64,000 nucleotides of DNA from Halobacterium sp. R2-5. Lineage in GTDB: Archaea > Halobacteriota > Halobacteria > Halobacteriales > Halobacteriaceae. Positions 3,039 through 41,552 of the stretch are shown piece after piece. Below the pieces are notes generated by a model. The model ran no database searches. It saw only the letters and a program-made list of their open reading frames with translations, and had not been told where the DNA came from. Within the stretch, counting starts at the first letter, position 1. Each line of letters starts with the position of its first letter. The position numbers and the translations under genes are program-made. The DNA lies in assembly GCF_011734195.1 (NCBI RefSeq), contig NZ_JAANTH010000001.1:682001-746000 (forward strand), given 5' to 3'.

Positions 3039-4772
3039 TTAGGAGTCGCCGGCGTAGACGACGCCGCGCTCGCCGTCCACGGTGACGACGCTCCCGGTGT
3101 CGACGTCCTCCAGGTCCGCGTCCCCGACCATCGGGACGTCGAGTTCGCGGGCGACCATCGCGGGGTAGCCGGTCATCCCGGTCTGCGCGCTCACGATGCC
3201 CGCGATCTTCGAGAGGTCGCCGCGGAACTCGTCGTCGAAGCCGTTGTCCAGCACGACGACCGAGCGCTCGGGCACCTCGGAGAGGTCGCCGTCGTCGAGC
3301 ACCGCGACGGGCGCGGTGACGCGTCCCTTCACGACGGACTGCCCGACGGCGAGCGTCTCCGCCGCGACGTGGACCTTCAGCGTGTTCGTCGTGCTCGCGC
3401 CCTCCAGCTCGGTCATCATGCCGACGAGCACGACCACCGTGTCGCCGCTGTCCACGATGTCGGAGTCGACGGCCGCCTGCACCGCGCGCTCGACGACCGT
3501 CGTCGCGTCCCCCTCCGCGACCGCCGCGTACTCCGCGTGGACGCCCCAGTTGAGCGCGAGCTCGCGGCGCACGCGGTGGGAGGGCGTCGCGCAGACCACG
3601 GGAACCCGCGGCCGGAACTTCGCGGCCTTCCGGGCCGTGTACCCGGACTCGGAGGCGACCACGACCGCGCTCGCGTCGATGTCCCGCGCGAGGTAGCGCG
3701 CCGACCGTGCGAGCGCGTCCGTCTTCGCCGTGCCGTCGGCGTTCGGGACGCGCTGCTCCTGCAGCTCCGCATACTCGCCGCTCCCCTCGACCTCGCGGAC
3801 GATGCGGTCCATCGTCTCAACCACTCGCGTCGGGTCGTCGCCCACGGCCGTCTCCGCGGACAGCATCACGGCGTCTGTGCCGTCGAGCACGGCGTTCGCG
3901 ACGTCGCTGGCCTCCGCGCGCGTCGGGCGGCGCGCGTGCACCATCGAGTCCAGCATCTCCGTCGCCGTGATGACGGGGACGCCCGCGTCCCGGCACCGCC
4001 GGATGATGCGCTTCTGGATCATCGGCACGTCCTCCATCGGGCACTCCACGCCGAGGTCGCCGCGCGCGACCATCACGCCGTCGGCGGCCTCGATGATGCC
4101 GTCGAGGTTCTCCACCGCGCCCGCCCGCTCGATCTTCGCGACCACGGGGAGGTCCGCGTCGAACGACTCCAGCACGCGCTCGACCTCCAGGACGTCCTCG
4201 CCGTCCCGAACGAAGCTCGCCGCGACGTAGTCGACGCCCTCCTCGGCGGCGAGCTCGAGGTCGTGGCGGTCCTTCTCCGTGACGACGTCGAGGTCTAACT
4301 CGACTCCGGGGACGTTCACGCCCTTCCGGCCGCCGAGGTCGCCGCCGGACTCCACGCGCGCGGTCACAACGTCACCCGAGACGCTCTCGACGACCGTCTC
4401 GATGCGGCCGTCGTCCAGCAGCACGCGGTCCCCGGGCTCGGCCGCCGCCACGCTCGTCGACAGTCCGATCGTCTCCCCGGTCGTCTCCCCGCCCGGCACG
4501 AACTCCACTGTGCTCCCGGTCTCGACGTGAACCGGCTCGTCGGTCTCCGCCGTGCGCACCTCCGGTCCCTTCGTGTCCAGCATCACCGCCACCGGCTTCT
4601 CCGTCACCTCGTCGACGCGCCGCGCCGTCGAAATCAGCTCGCGGCGGTCCTCGCGCCCCCCGTGGCTCGCGTTGATGCGCGCGACCGACATCCCCGCGTC
4701 CACCAGCGACCGGATCGACGCCTCGTCGTCTGTCGCCGGACCCAGCGTGCAGACGATCTTCGCGTTCCTCAT
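3039..4772 (-). CDS. pyk: pyruvate kinase
   Basis: Converts PEP and ADP to pyruvate and ATP, the last step of glycolysis. The 577 residues begin MRNAKIVCTLGPATDD and include the Mg/PEP site MVARGDLGVECP and the signature ITATEMLDSM. An allosteric-type domain follows, then an extra C-terminal domain like the PEP-utilizing mobile domain, as in Bacillus-type enzymes. In that extra domain the usual phospho-histidine motif (TSHAA) reads MTGYPAMVARE, so the histidine is absent. An upstream in-frame ATG at 4823 would add 17 basic residues and overlap the regulatory site; the ATG at 4772 is the family start. A TrmB-like operator lies 42-57 nt upstream, and the antagonist ppsA is about 6 kb away. Confidence 0.97.
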   Translation of the reverse strand: MRNAKIVCTLGPATDDEASIRSLVDAGMSVARINASHGGREDRRELISTARRVDEVTEKPVAVMLDTKGPEVRTAETDEPVHVETGSTVEFVPGGETTGETIGLSTSVAAAEPGDRVLLDDGRIETVVESVSGDVVTARVESGGDLGGRKGVNVPGVELDLDVVTEKDRHDLELAAEEGVDYVAASFVRDGEDVLEVERVLESFDADLPVVAKIERAGAVENLDGIIEAADGVMVARGDLGVECPMEDVPMIQKRIIRRCRDAGVPVITATEMLDSMVHARRPTRAEASDVANAVLDGTDAVMLSAETAVGDDPTRVVETMDRIVREVEGSGEYAELQEQRVPNADGTAKTDALARSARYLARDIDASAVVVASESGYTARKAAKFRPRVPVVCATPSHRVRRELALNWGVHAEYAAVAEGDATTVVERAVQAAVDSDIVDSGDTVVVLVGMMTELEGASTTNTLKVHVAAETLAVGQSVVKGRVTAPVAVLDDGDLSEVPERSVVVLDNGFDDEFRGDLSKIAGIVSAQTGMTGYPAMVARELDVPMVGDADLEDVDTGSVVTVDGERGVVYAGDS

Positions 4773-4813
4773 GCCCGCGGCTACACGGCCGCCACGCAAA
4801 AACGTACGTAATT

Positions 4814-4829
4814 TACTCGCCATCGAGTA
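4814..4829 (-). promoter_or_regulatory. TrmB-type operator upstream of pyk
   Basis: The sequence TACT-N7-GAGTA (TTACTCGCCATCGAGTAA with flanks) is a near-perfect palindrome, 42-57 nt before the pyk ATG. It matches the Halobacterium TrmB consensus TACT-N7/8-GAGTA. An AT-rich TATA-like stretch (TAAATTA on the minus strand) directly abuts and partly overlaps it on the pyk side, which would suit repression. The GYD gene on the other strand starts 49 nt away. Confidence 0.75.
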
Positions 4830-4877
4830 ACACAGTGGCCACAGCGCCTATTCGGCAGCGCGTCCAACCCCCCGCAT

Positions 4878-5165
4878 ATGCCGACGTACGCCGCTATCGC
4901 CGACGTCGAGACCGGTCAGTATCAGAACCCACAGGACATCGCCGCCATCTGGGGCGACGTCCGCGCCGACCTCGAAGAACAGGACTGCCAGCTCAAGGAC
5001 TCCTACGTCCTCCTCGGCGGCCACGACATCCTCCTCCTCTTCGAAGCCGACGACAGCCACGCCGCCCTCCAGGCCTCCATCGCCGCCGAGCGCTACGGCA
5101 TCAACATGCAGACCCACGAAGCCATCCCCGTCGAAAACCTCGGCGAACTCGTCGACGACCTCTGA
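4878..5165 (+). CDS. GYD domain-containing protein
   Basis: A 95-residue soluble protein with a ferredoxin-like fold pattern. It starts MPTYAAIADVETGQYQNPQD and contains KDSYVLLGGHDILLLFEADD, the region equivalent to the GYDDVV core of the GYD family. These are small stress-associated or sensor-like proteins without known catalysis. The gene is transcribed away from pyk across a 105-bp spacer that carries the TrmB-like site. It is followed by a structured intergenic repeat. Function unknown. Confidence 0.85.
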   Translation: MPTYAAIADVETGQYQNPQDIAAIWGDVRADLEEQDCQLKDSYVLLGGHDILLLFEADDSHAALQASIAAERYGINMQTHEAIPVENLGELVDDL

Positions 5166-10760: not shown

Positions 10761-13010
10761 TCAGTCCCGGGCGGAGTCGAGGATGAGGCGCTGTTCGACG
10801 CGCTTGACCTCGTGCTGGACGTCCCGGACTGCGTCGATGTTCGCGGAGATCGAGGAGATGCCGGTCTCCACGAGGAAGTCAACCATGTCGGGCTTCGAGC
10901 CGGCCTGCCCGCAGATGCTGGTGGCGATGTCGTGCTCGCGGCAGGACTCGATGGCGGTCTCGATGAGCCGCAGCACGGACGGGTGGAGTTCGTCGAAGCG
11001 GTCCGCGACGTTGCCGTTGTTCCGGTCGACGGCGAGCACGTACTGCGTGAGGTCGTTCGTGCCGAACGACGCGAAGTCGATGCCCTCGGCGGCCATCTCG
11101 TCGACGGTCAGCGCCGCGGACGGCGTCTCCACCATCACGCCCCACTGGCGCTTCTCCGTGTCGATGCCGGCGTCGACCATGAGCTGGCGGGCCCGGCGGA
11201 CGTCGTCGGCGTCGTTCACGAGCGGGAACATGATCTCGACGTTGTCGTAGCCCATCTCGTAGAGCTCGCGGAACGCCGTGAGCTCGTGCTGGAAGACGTC
11301 CGGCCGGTCGAGGCTGCGGCGGATGCCCCGGTACCCCATCATGGGGTTGTGCTCGTGGGGCTCGTCGTTGCCGCCCTCGAGCTGGCGGAACTCGTCGGTC
11401 GGCGCGTCGAGCGTGCGCACGCGGACGGGCCGCGGGTAGAACTCCTCGGCGACGCCGCGGATGCCCGACACGAGCTCGTCGACGTAGGCGTCCTCGCCGT
11501 GGTCCTCGATGTAGCGCTCGGGCGTCTTGTTCGTCGAGAGGATCATGTGCTCCATGCGGAGCAGACCGACGCCGTCGGCGCCCGTGGCGGCCGCGCGCTC
11601 GGCGGCTTCCGGGATGGAGACGTTGACTTTCACTTCGGTCGCGGTCATCGGCTTCACGGGCGTCGTCGGCCGGGCCTCCTCGATGGGGTCGCGCTCGGAC
11701 TCGGGCTCCGAGCGCCCCTCGGTGATGGTGCCGCGGTCGCCGTCGAGCGTGACGATCTGGTCGTCGTTGAGCACGTCCGTGGCGTTCGTCGCGCCGACGA
11801 CCGCGGGACAGCCGAGCTCGCGGGAGACGATGGCGGCGTGACTGGTCATCCCGCCCTCGTCGGTGACGATGCCGGCGGCGCGCTTCATCGCGGGCACCAT
11901 GTCCGGCGTCGTCATCGCGGTGACGATGATGTCGCCCTCGCCGACCTTGTCGAGCTGGTCGAGTTTCGTGACGACGCGAGCCGGGCCGGACGCGATGCCG
12001 GGGCTGGCGCCGAGGCCGTTCACGAGCTCCTCGCCGGTGTCGTCGCTTTCGGTCATCTCGGTGTCTTCGTCGATGGTCGTGATGGGACGGGACTGGAGCA
12101 TGTAGACGTCGCCGTCCACCATCGCCCACTCCACGTCCTGCGGTTCTCCGTAGTGGTCCTCGACGCGCTCGCCGATCTTCACGAGCTCCAGAATCTCCTC
12201 GTCGGAGAGCACGCGCTGCTCGCGTTTCTCCTCGGGGACCTCGCGCTCGACGGTCTCGCCGGTCTCCTCGTCGCGGACGCACATCACCTTCTTGTCCGCG
12301 ACCGACACCGACTCGACGCTGCCGGTGTCGCGGTCGACGTGGTAGTTGTCCGGGGAGACGGAGCCCGAGACGACCGCTTCGCCGAGCCCCCACGCGGCCT
12401 CGATGATGGCCTCGTGGGCGCCCGTCGACGGGTGGCTCGTGAACATCACGCCGGACTTCTCGGCGTCGACCATCTTCTGGACGACCACCGCGATGTCGAC
12501 CTTGCGGTGTTCGAAGCCCTGCTCCTCGCGGTAGTAGATGGCGCGCTGCGTGAACAGCGACGCCCAGCAGCGCTTCACGCGGTCGATGAGGTCATCGCGG
12601 GTGATGTTGAGGAACGTCTCCTGTTGGCCCGCGAAGCTCGCGTCCGGGAGGTCCTCGGCGGTCGCCGACGACCGCACGGCGACCGACGCCTGCCCGTCGT
12701 CTAAGTCGTCGTACGACGAGAGGATGTCCTCGCGGATGTGTTCGGGCAGTTCGGTGTTCAGGATGATGTCCTTGGCCGCGGCTTCGGCGTCCGCGAGCGC
12801 GCCGGAGTCCTCGGGGTCGACGTTCACTGCGTCGAACAGTTCGTCGTCGATGTCTGCGTCCTCGATGAACGAGCGGTACGTACCGGCGGTCACGACGAAC
12901 CCCGGTGGGACGGGCAGCCCGGCGTCGGTCAACTCGCCGAGTGACGCGCCCTTGCCGCCGACACTGTCGATGTCGTCGGCCCGTATGTCCTCCAGCCAGC
13001 GTACAGCCAT
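10761..13010 (-). CDS. ppsA: phosphoenolpyruvate synthase
   Basis: Makes PEP from pyruvate with ATP going to AMP and phosphate, the gluconeogenic counterpart of pyruvate kinase. The 749 residues have an N-terminal ATP-grasp domain (SVGGKGASLGELTDAGLPVP), a swivelling phosphohistidine domain with GGMTSHAAIVSREL (His391), and a C-terminal TIM barrel with SICGQAGSKPD. Length is normal for the family. An upstream ATG at 13094 would add 28 unconserved residues; the ATG at 13008-13010 gives the standard MAVRWLEDI start. A TrmB-like element lies 67-82 nt upstream. Confidence 0.97.
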   Translation of the reverse strand: MAVRWLEDIRADDIDSVGGKGASLGELTDAGLPVPPGFVVTAGTYRSFIEDADIDDELFDAVNVDPEDSGALADAEAAAKDIILNTELPEHIREDILSSYDDLDDGQASVAVRSSATAEDLPDASFAGQQETFLNITRDDLIDRVKRCWASLFTQRAIYYREEQGFEHRKVDIAVVVQKMVDAEKSGVMFTSHPSTGAHEAIIEAAWGLGEAVVSGSVSPDNYHVDRDTGSVESVSVADKKVMCVRDEETGETVEREVPEEKREQRVLSDEEILELVKIGERVEDHYGEPQDVEWAMVDGDVYMLQSRPITTIDEDTEMTESDDTGEELVNGLGASPGIASGPARVVTKLDQLDKVGEGDIIVTAMTTPDMVPAMKRAAGIVTDEGGMTSHAAIVSRELGCPAVVGATNATDVLNDDQIVTLDGDRGTITEGRSEPESERDPIEEARPTTPVKPMTATEVKVNVSIPEAAERAAATGADGVGLLRMEHMILSTNKTPERYIEDHGEDAYVDELVSGIRGVAEEFYPRPVRVRTLDAPTDEFRQLEGGNDEPHEHNPMMGYRGIRRSLDRPDVFQHELTAFRELYEMGYDNVEIMFPLVNDADDVRRARQLMVDAGIDTEKRQWGVMVETPSAALTVDEMAAEGIDFASFGTNDLTQYVLAVDRNNGNVADRFDELHPSVLRLIETAIESCREHDIATSICGQAGSKPDMVDFLVETGISSISANIDAVRDVQHEVKRVEQRLILDSARD

Positions 13011-13076: not shown

Positions 13077-13092
13077 AACTCGGAAGCGAGTC
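13077..13092 (-). promoter_or_regulatory. TrmB-like operator upstream of ppsA
   Basis: ACTC-N6-GAGT (ACTCGGAAGCGAGT, 13078-13091) has the same core and spacing as the site before pyk but lacks the outer T/A pair. It is 67-82 nt before the ppsA ATG. AT-rich TATA candidates (TAATTATTG near 13067-13075, TTCTTATGG near 13040) lie between it and the gene. An operator upstream of TATA is the layout reported for TrmB-activated genes. Confidence 0.6.
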
Positions 13093-40151: not shown

Positions 40152-41552
40152 ATGATACGGAACCGGGAGGAGCTGGCGACGACAGAGGGCCGGGACACCG
40201 CACTCGCGTGTGTCGAGGCGGGGATTCGAGCTGCCCACCCGAAGTCGGTCGTCCGCGAGGCCGTGACTCGTTCTGGAGACACGCTGTCCGTACTCGGCGA
40301 CGAGTACGACCTGCGCGAGTACACCGAGGTCGTGGTCGTCGGCGGCGGGAACGCCGCCGGCTACGTCGCGGCCGCCCTCGAGGACGTGCTCGGCGACCGG
40401 CTCGACCGCGGGGCTGTCGTCACTGACGACCCGACCCCGACCGAGTGCGTCGACGTCCTGCGGGGCGACCATCCGGTGCCGAGCGAGCGCGGGGTCGCGG
40501 GAGCGAACACCGTCCTCGACCTCGCCGAGTCCGCGACCGAGGACACGCTCGTGCTGGCGGTGGTCACCGGCGGCGGGAGCGCCCTCCTCCCGGCGCCCGC
40601 CGGGGACGTCACGCTCGCGGACCTCCAGGCGACGACCGACGAACTGCTCGCCTCCGGCGCGACCATCCACGAGATAAACGCCGTCCGGAAGCACCTCTCC
40701 GCGCTGAAGGGCGGCCAGCTCGCTCGCGCCGCCGCGCCCGGGACGGTGGTGGGGCTGCTGTTGAGCGACGTGAACGGCGACGACCTGAGCGTCATCGGTA
40801 GCGGGCCGACTGCACCGGACGACTCGACGTTCGCGGAGGCCGTGGAAGTCCTCGAAGCCTACGACGTGGCGGTCCCCGACCGCGTGGAGTCGCGCCTCCG
40901 TCGCGGCGCTGACCGGGACGACCACGCGGCCGACTGTCGAGACACACCGACAGCGACGGACAACTCTGAAATCGCCGCGGAGACGCCGACGAGCGGCGAT
41001 TCCGTGTTCGACCGCGTCACCAACTACGTCCTGGCGAACGGGTTCACCGCACTCGCCGCCGCCCGCGAGATCGCCGCCGAGCGGGGGTACGAGGCGATGA
41101 TTCTCTCCGCGAGCGTCCGCGGGGAGGCCCGTGAAGCCGCCAAGACCCACGTCGCGGTCGCCGAGGAGGTGGTCGCGACGGACAACCCCGTGTCGGCGCC
41201 GGCAGTCGTCCTCTCGGGCGGTGAGACGACGGTGACAGTCAGCGGCGACGGCGAGGGCGGGCCGAACCAGGAGTTCGCCACGAGCGCCGCCGCAGAACTG
41301 GACCTCGACGGCGTGACGCTGGCGGCCGTCGACACCGACGGCATCGACGGTGCGACCGACGCCGCTGGCGCCGTGGTCGACGCCGACACGGTCGACGGGG
41401 GCGCCGACGCGGCCCGTGCCGCGCTCGCCGACAACGACGTCACACCGTTCCTCCGGGAGCGGGGCGCACTAGTTCAGACGGGCGCGACCGGCACGAACGT
41501 CAACGATCTCCGCGTGCTGGTCGTCGAGGAGAGTCCTAACTCGGCCGACTAG
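40152..41552 (+). CDS. glycerate 2-kinase (DUF4147/MOFRL family)
   Basis: Phosphorylates D-glycerate to 2-phosphoglycerate, feeding lower glycolysis. The 466 residues have an N-terminal DUF4147 domain with VVVGGGNAAGYVAAALEDVL and AVRKHLSALKGGQLA, and a C-terminal MOFRL domain with VVLSGGETTVTVSGDGEGGP and DTDGIDGATDAAGAVVD. A hydrophilic insertion of about 20 residues near 258-280 is unusual. The frame is open to an ATG at 40119, but MIRNREELATTEGR at 40152 is the better start. It converges with a GntP permease, suggesting uptake plus phosphorylation. Confidence 0.92.
   Translation: MIRNREELATTEGRDTALACVEAGIRAAHPKSVVREAVTRSGDTLSVLGDEYDLREYTEVVVVGGGNAAGYVAAALEDVLGDRLDRGAVVTDDPTPTECVDVLRGDHPVPSERGVAGANTVLDLAESATEDTLVLAVVTGGGSALLPAPAGDVTLADLQATTDELLASGATIHEINAVRKHLSALKGGQLARAAAPGTVVGLLLSDVNGDDLSVIGSGPTAPDDSTFAEAVEVLEAYDVAVPDRVESRLRRGADRDDHAADCRDTPTATDNSEIAAETPTSGDSVFDRVTNYVLANGFTALAAAREIAAERGYEAMILSASVRGEAREAAKTHVAVAEEVVATDNPVSAPAVVLSGGETTVTVSGDGEGGPNQEFATSAAAELDLDGVTLAAVDTDGIDGATDAAGAVVDADTVDGGADAARAALADNDVTPFLRERGALVQTGATGTNVNDLRVLVVEESPNSAD

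Follow-up and report, generated by a model that had tools for sequence, protein, structure and literature searches.

In the haloarchaea, transcription is regarded as the main control on the flow between phosphoenolpyruvate and pyruvate (PMC3794607). In Hbt. salinarum, TrmB binding has been shown, TrmB represses pykA and glucose releases this repression; within five minutes of glucose, pykA rises 12.7-fold and ppsA falls 3.6-fold in a TrmB-dependent manner (PMC3794607). The motif recognized there is TACT-N7-8-GAGTA (PMC4158304, PMC3794607), and ppsA, pykA and gapII are TrmB targets, gapII also being one in Har. hispanica (PMC3794607; PMC10817205). In the latter organism, TrmB-repressed genes carry their motifs over the BRE and activated genes carry them further upstream, and for the Thermococcales the rule is that a site upstream of the TATA box activates (quoted in PMC10817205). 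Regarding the core promoter, the haloarchaeal consensus sequences are TTWT for TATA and CGAAA for the BRE (PMC4983044), with a WW element at -10 (PMC4983044; PMC6085418).

In the case of Halobacterium sp. R2-5, a 16-base palindrome at 4814-4829 of the window (the whole stretch of 64,000 nucleotides that was analysed) precedes the pyruvate kinase gene pyk. It reads TACTCGCCATCGAGTA on the plus strand and TACTCGATGGCGAGTA on the minus strand, the latter being an exact TACT-N7-GAGTA, that is, the published Halobacterium TrmB motif (PMC4158304, PMC3794607). A preliminary description of this DNA had reported such a string 42-57 nt before pyk as a match to the Halobacterium TrmB consensus; sequence, coordinates and distance were all correct, and the match to the published motif is exact. 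Altogether, the palindrome is very likely a real TrmB binding site. The features of this region are:

3039..4772, minus strand: pyk, encoding pyruvate kinase of 577 aa (TIGR01064 and NF004978 over cut-off)
4782..4783, minus strand: TA at -11/-10, taken as the haloarchaeal WW element from its conservation (PMC4983044, PMC6085418)
4798..4802, minus strand: probable TATA element of pyk, TTTTT at -30 to -26, which varies little whether or not an operator is present (consensus TTWT, PMC4983044)
4803..4810, minus strand: presumed BRE region of pyk between operator and TATA, assigned by position only and a poor match to CGAAA (PMC4983044)
4812..4814, minus strand: A-rich tail of the operator on its TATA side (GAGTWAR), source of a TAAATTA candidate (4815-4809)
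4814..4829, minus strand: predicted TrmB operator TACTCGATGGCGAGTA, covering -57 to -42 relative to the pyk start codon (ATG at 4772), from motif match and conservation
4878..5165, plus strand: divergent GYD-domain gene, whose TATA-like TATT (4849-4852) lies 20 bp downstream of the operator

The string alone is weak evidence for an operator, because it is not enriched genome-wide and its second match in the window is coding. In detail, exact TACT-N7-GAGTA occurs at two places in the window against 0.03 expected from window shuffles, both places matching on both strands. Across the 2.98-Mb genome there were 9 strand matches compared to 7 for the reversed control pattern, thus no enrichment of the exact string; other genome-wide pattern counts were inflated by coding sequence. 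The second window match, at 40291-40306, was rejected, as it consists of codons for L-G-D-E-Y within a DUF4147/MOFRL, glycerate 2-kinase-like gene. It is a decoy for motif scans.

More weight could be placed on conservation. Upstream regions of pyk from 80 haloarchaeal contigs, together with 94 further genes from genomes of the same order, gave 167 distinct promoters, in which ACTC-N6-GAGT was searched within -75 to -50 of pyk, one mismatch being allowed. The operator was found in 89 of them (74 being exact over the eight fixed bases), whereas shuffled pyk promoters gave 1.4 matches on average and never more than 5. The site is thus kept before pyk in relatives, a point on which the preliminary description had asked for a check. 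In 80 of the 89 operator-bearing promoters the 16-mer starts at -55 to -58, and the orthologous site of Hbt. salinarum, AACTCAGTATCGAGTA, lies at -57. The conserved core is ACTCG-N4-CGAGT and the full consensus over the pyk promoters ACTCG-N4-CGAGTWAR, with a conserved A-rich tail solely on the TATA side; the base two positions after GAGT is A in 71/81 promoters.

The pyk operator is present in at least six haloarchaeal families, namely the family of the window (9/18 promoters), f3 (5/12), f6 (8/14), f8 (2/2), f10 (3/4) and f11 (6/8). At the genus level it occurs in Natrinema, Natrialba, Natronococcus, Haladaptatus (one without), Halorussus, Haloarchaeobius and Haloferax. It was absent from all 19 promoters of f2 and all 8 of f5, and the single match among the 9 of f4 sits at another position; among the promoters compared, those of Halorientalis and Halostella also lack it. 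We take f2 to be a Haloarcula-like family because its pyk promoters resemble those of Halorientalis. The occurrence of the site in at least six families points to a loss in the Haloarcula branch, a polarity that is not proved; on a pyk tree of 81 rows operator presence changes at least 12 times, a count that cannot separate gain from loss. Presence or absence of TrmB was rejected as the reason for operator loss, since a TrmB ortholog was found in 40/40 haloarchaea tested (in one of them, G042, split into two pieces).

Several variations of the site were also seen. Two genomes of the window's own genus (G087 and G064) have lost the operator and kept the T-tract core promoter. In Halorubrum, the pyk promoters carry a variant, CACTCG-N4-CGACTC, at the same place, and its altered half-site is conserved within the genus. 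In several Halorussus-like genomes the operator is shifted away from pyk by about 12 bp, or one helical turn, to -68 to -70, leaving about 24 bp to TATA.

The same alignment allowed us to assign the core promoter. On the 3' side of the operator, TTTTT and a TA-type pair at -11/-10 are the sole strongly conserved features of the 167 promoters, the pair more weakly so than TTTTT. The T-tract starts from -29 to -31 in 85/89 promoters with an operator and in about 50/78 without. Because of TTTTT at about -30 and TA at -11/-10, the pyk mRNA is probably leaderless, with its start at or beside the ATG; no Shine-Dalgarno sequence was seen before pyk, as would be expected of such a transcript. Of the 85 promoters having both elements, 71 have the operator end 11-12 bp from TTTTT. 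On this predicted promoter map about 11 bp separate the end of the pyk operator from the downstream TATA, so that the operator abuts the BRE and TATA is not covered.

TrmB of this genome scores 580.8 against the NCBIfam halo-TrmB cut-off of 500 and is 74% identical to the Hbt. salinarum protein; its helix-turn-helix stretch of 34 residues, which includes the Tyr-Asp pair, is identical, and it keeps the Gly-x5-Glu-Asp sugar-site residues (residues per PMC4158304). A second copy of the palindrome was found at the gene for the opposing enzyme:

10761..13010, minus strand: ppsA, encoding phosphoenolpyruvate synthase, which opposes pyk (TIGR01418, 978 bits, cut-off 740)
13077..13092, minus strand: further TrmB-type operator GACTCGCTTCCGAGTT, preceding ppsA, whose TATA-like TTCTTAT (13045-13039) follows 32 bp downstream

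The ppsA palindrome is also found in other Halobacterium and in Haloferax. Before gapII, the palindrome occurs in Natrinema, Halorussus, Haladaptatus, Natronococcus, Haloferax and Halorientalis. In Halobacterium the gapII copies are degenerate, with 2 mismatches, and Halorientalis marina has a clear gapII site and no pyk site. The assignment to TrmB made in the preliminary description thus gains support from motif identity, from a TrmB ortholog whose DNA-reading stretch is identical and from the palindrome at ppsA and gapII, and its proposal that a glycolytic gene is repressed at low sugar agrees with the published findings on Hbt. salinarum, where repression of pykA depends on TrmB (PMC3794607).

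A possible mechanistic view emerges from the spacing between operator and TATA, measured from the GAGT end to the first TATA base, with some spacings read by eye. At most pyk genes it is 11-12 bp, at gapII 20 bp in most Halobacterium and about 28 bp elsewhere, and at ppsA 32-36 bp. The closest operator thus belongs to the repressed gene (pyk) and the more distant ones to activated genes (gapII, ppsA). The pyk spacing, close enough to collide with TFB, fits the BRE rule of Har. hispanica. We consider it rather probable that 4814-4829 is the TrmB operator of pyk and would occlude TFB at the BRE under low sugar. In the proposed sequence of events, a TrmB dimer would at low sugar occupy ACTCG-N4-CGAGT at -57 to -42 and shield the BRE together with the upstream side of the complex at TATA (TTTTT, -30 to -26), so that TFB/TBP and RNA polymerase would be kept from assembling and no pyruvate kinase would be made. 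Further upstream at ppsA and gapII, TrmB would aid assembly, turning gluconeogenesis on. Glucose or glycerol would loosen TrmB binding, by which pyk would be freed and ppsA would drop. Here, binding as a dimer at the pyk operator and occlusion of TFB at the BRE as the physical step of repression are presumed, and by analogy this species should behave like Hbt. salinarum. Three points count against this explanation: by the Thermococcales rule an operator upstream of TATA would predict activation, the pyk operator is lost in some Halobacterium (G087, G064), and with a BRE so unlike CGAAA the basal pyk promoter may depend on an activator.

Alternative explanations concern the promoter, the target and the regulator. 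That the pyk palindrome is a chance string without function hardly deserves credence: the exact string is not enriched across the genome and a like match sits inside the coding gene at 40291, but position and spacing are fixed in at least six families, which strongly disfavours chance, and position together with conservation show that the pyk operator is not a chance occurrence. Regarding the promoter, the preliminary description had named a TAAATTA TATA candidate abutting and overlapping the proximal half of the operator. The string exists at 4815-4809 and shares two bases with the operator, but the conserved TATA is TTTTT, 12 bp past GAGT. If TAAATTA were the TATA box overlapped by the operator, the pyk mRNA would have a leader of about 15 nt. 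TAAATTA is indeed TATA-like, yet it is found in only 2 of the 167 pyk promoters, those of this genome and of Hbt. bonnevillei, and is missing from the other 165. Moreover, what is conserved is TTTTT at -30 and TA at -11/-10, and promoters without an operator still keep the T-tract; the operator's tail accounts for the AA that follows GAGT, and the apparent lack of a Shine-Dalgarno sequence is in keeping with a leaderless mRNA. We thus regard this placement of TATA as quite improbable.

Regarding the target, the divergent GYD gene instead of pyk could be what the operator mainly serves, as it lies 20 bp from the TATA-like element of this gene in this genome, and in Halobacterium and some Halorussus 48-49 bp separate it from the GYD ATG, a gapII-like spacing. 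Across lineages, however, the distance to the GYD start varies from 48 to more than 80 bp and the pyk spacing is fixed at 11-12 bp, and in Hbt. salinarum and Haloferax the operator is kept and no GYD gene was found there, making GYD a very improbable main target. As to the regulator, the palindrome could be, or could also be, a site of GfcR; the effect of TrmB on pyk would in that case come from the displacement of an activator. In Hfx. volcanii the glycolytic genes that GfcR activates include those for pyruvate kinase and GAPDH I (PMC11519228), and a GfcR is encoded here (344 bits, cut-off 300). The operator is conserved in Haloferax and stands where an activator might bind, upstream of a BRE whose poor match to CGAAA implies that the basal promoter may need an activator. 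Against GfcR, the palindrome is also found on the gluconeogenic side, before ppsA as well as gapII, and no strong copy precedes gapI of Haloferax, which is reported to be a GfcR target (the other GfcR targets were searched by exact palindrome only). On account of these observations at ppsA, gapII and Haloferax gapI we argue that the palindrome is probably in the first place a site of TrmB, and a role as GfcR site appears unlikely.

Repression of pyk by TrmB at this operator remains the preferred reading. A bolder extension of it, which we consider possible but doubtful, is that one operator serves both sides: TrmB at 4814-4829 would repress pyk (12 bp) and activate GYD (20 bp), the latter spacing being that of TrmB-activated gapII in Halobacterium. 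The sign would be set by the operator-to-TATA spacing (12 represses; 20, 28 and 32-36 activate). On this view haloarchaea would have inherited the pyk/ppsA switch from their common ancestor, and the Haloarcula lineage would have lost it.

Two observations concern the neighbouring genes. In Halobacterium, Halorussus, Haladaptatus and Natrialbaceae, a GCCAC element (here within window 4830-4878, plus strand) precedes the GYD TATA-like element at a short distance that varies little. The GfcR gene lies directly 3' of a glucose dehydrogenase-like gene in this genome (L141:224-1947).

The described systems can now be compared to this locus. Pyrococcus TrmB/TrmBL1 and Thermococcus Tgr likewise sense sugar, and they repress glycolytic and activate gluconeogenic genes by operator position (PMC4158304, PMC10817205), but their motifs are different (TACT-N3-AGTA and TATCAC-N5-GTGATA) and their repressing sites are reported to lie on or downstream of the TATA box. 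GfcR of Hfx. volcanii also controls pyk in response to sugar (PMC11519228), but is an activator with a phosphoribosyltransferase domain. The Har. hispanica TrmB regulon shares a similar palindrome, the gapII target and the motif over the BRE in repressed genes (PMC10817205); it differs in that the pyk/ppsA control point is absent, and the f2 genomes without a pyk site (0/19) fit the reported lack of TrmB control of pyk in that species. Our survey also bears on the published claim of regulon rewiring (PMC10817205), as the pyk site is no peculiarity of Halobacterium. The closest system is Hbt. salinarum, with TrmB (VNG1451C), pykA (VNG0324G) and ppsA (VNG0330G), where motif and gene pair are the same and TrmB and site are orthologous; the differences are the species and the core promoter, which was here assigned by comparison and places the site upstream of TATA. 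The pyk operator offers a target defined to the base, and its geometry makes a clear prediction of how a single regulator could switch opposing enzymes on and off. In conclusion, the TrmB-pyk link was already known from Hbt. salinarum and what we describe is its operator in another Halobacterium; new are the corrected promoter map, a proposed spacing rule, and evidence that many haloarchaea share the pyk site whereas the Haloarcula-like family lacks it.
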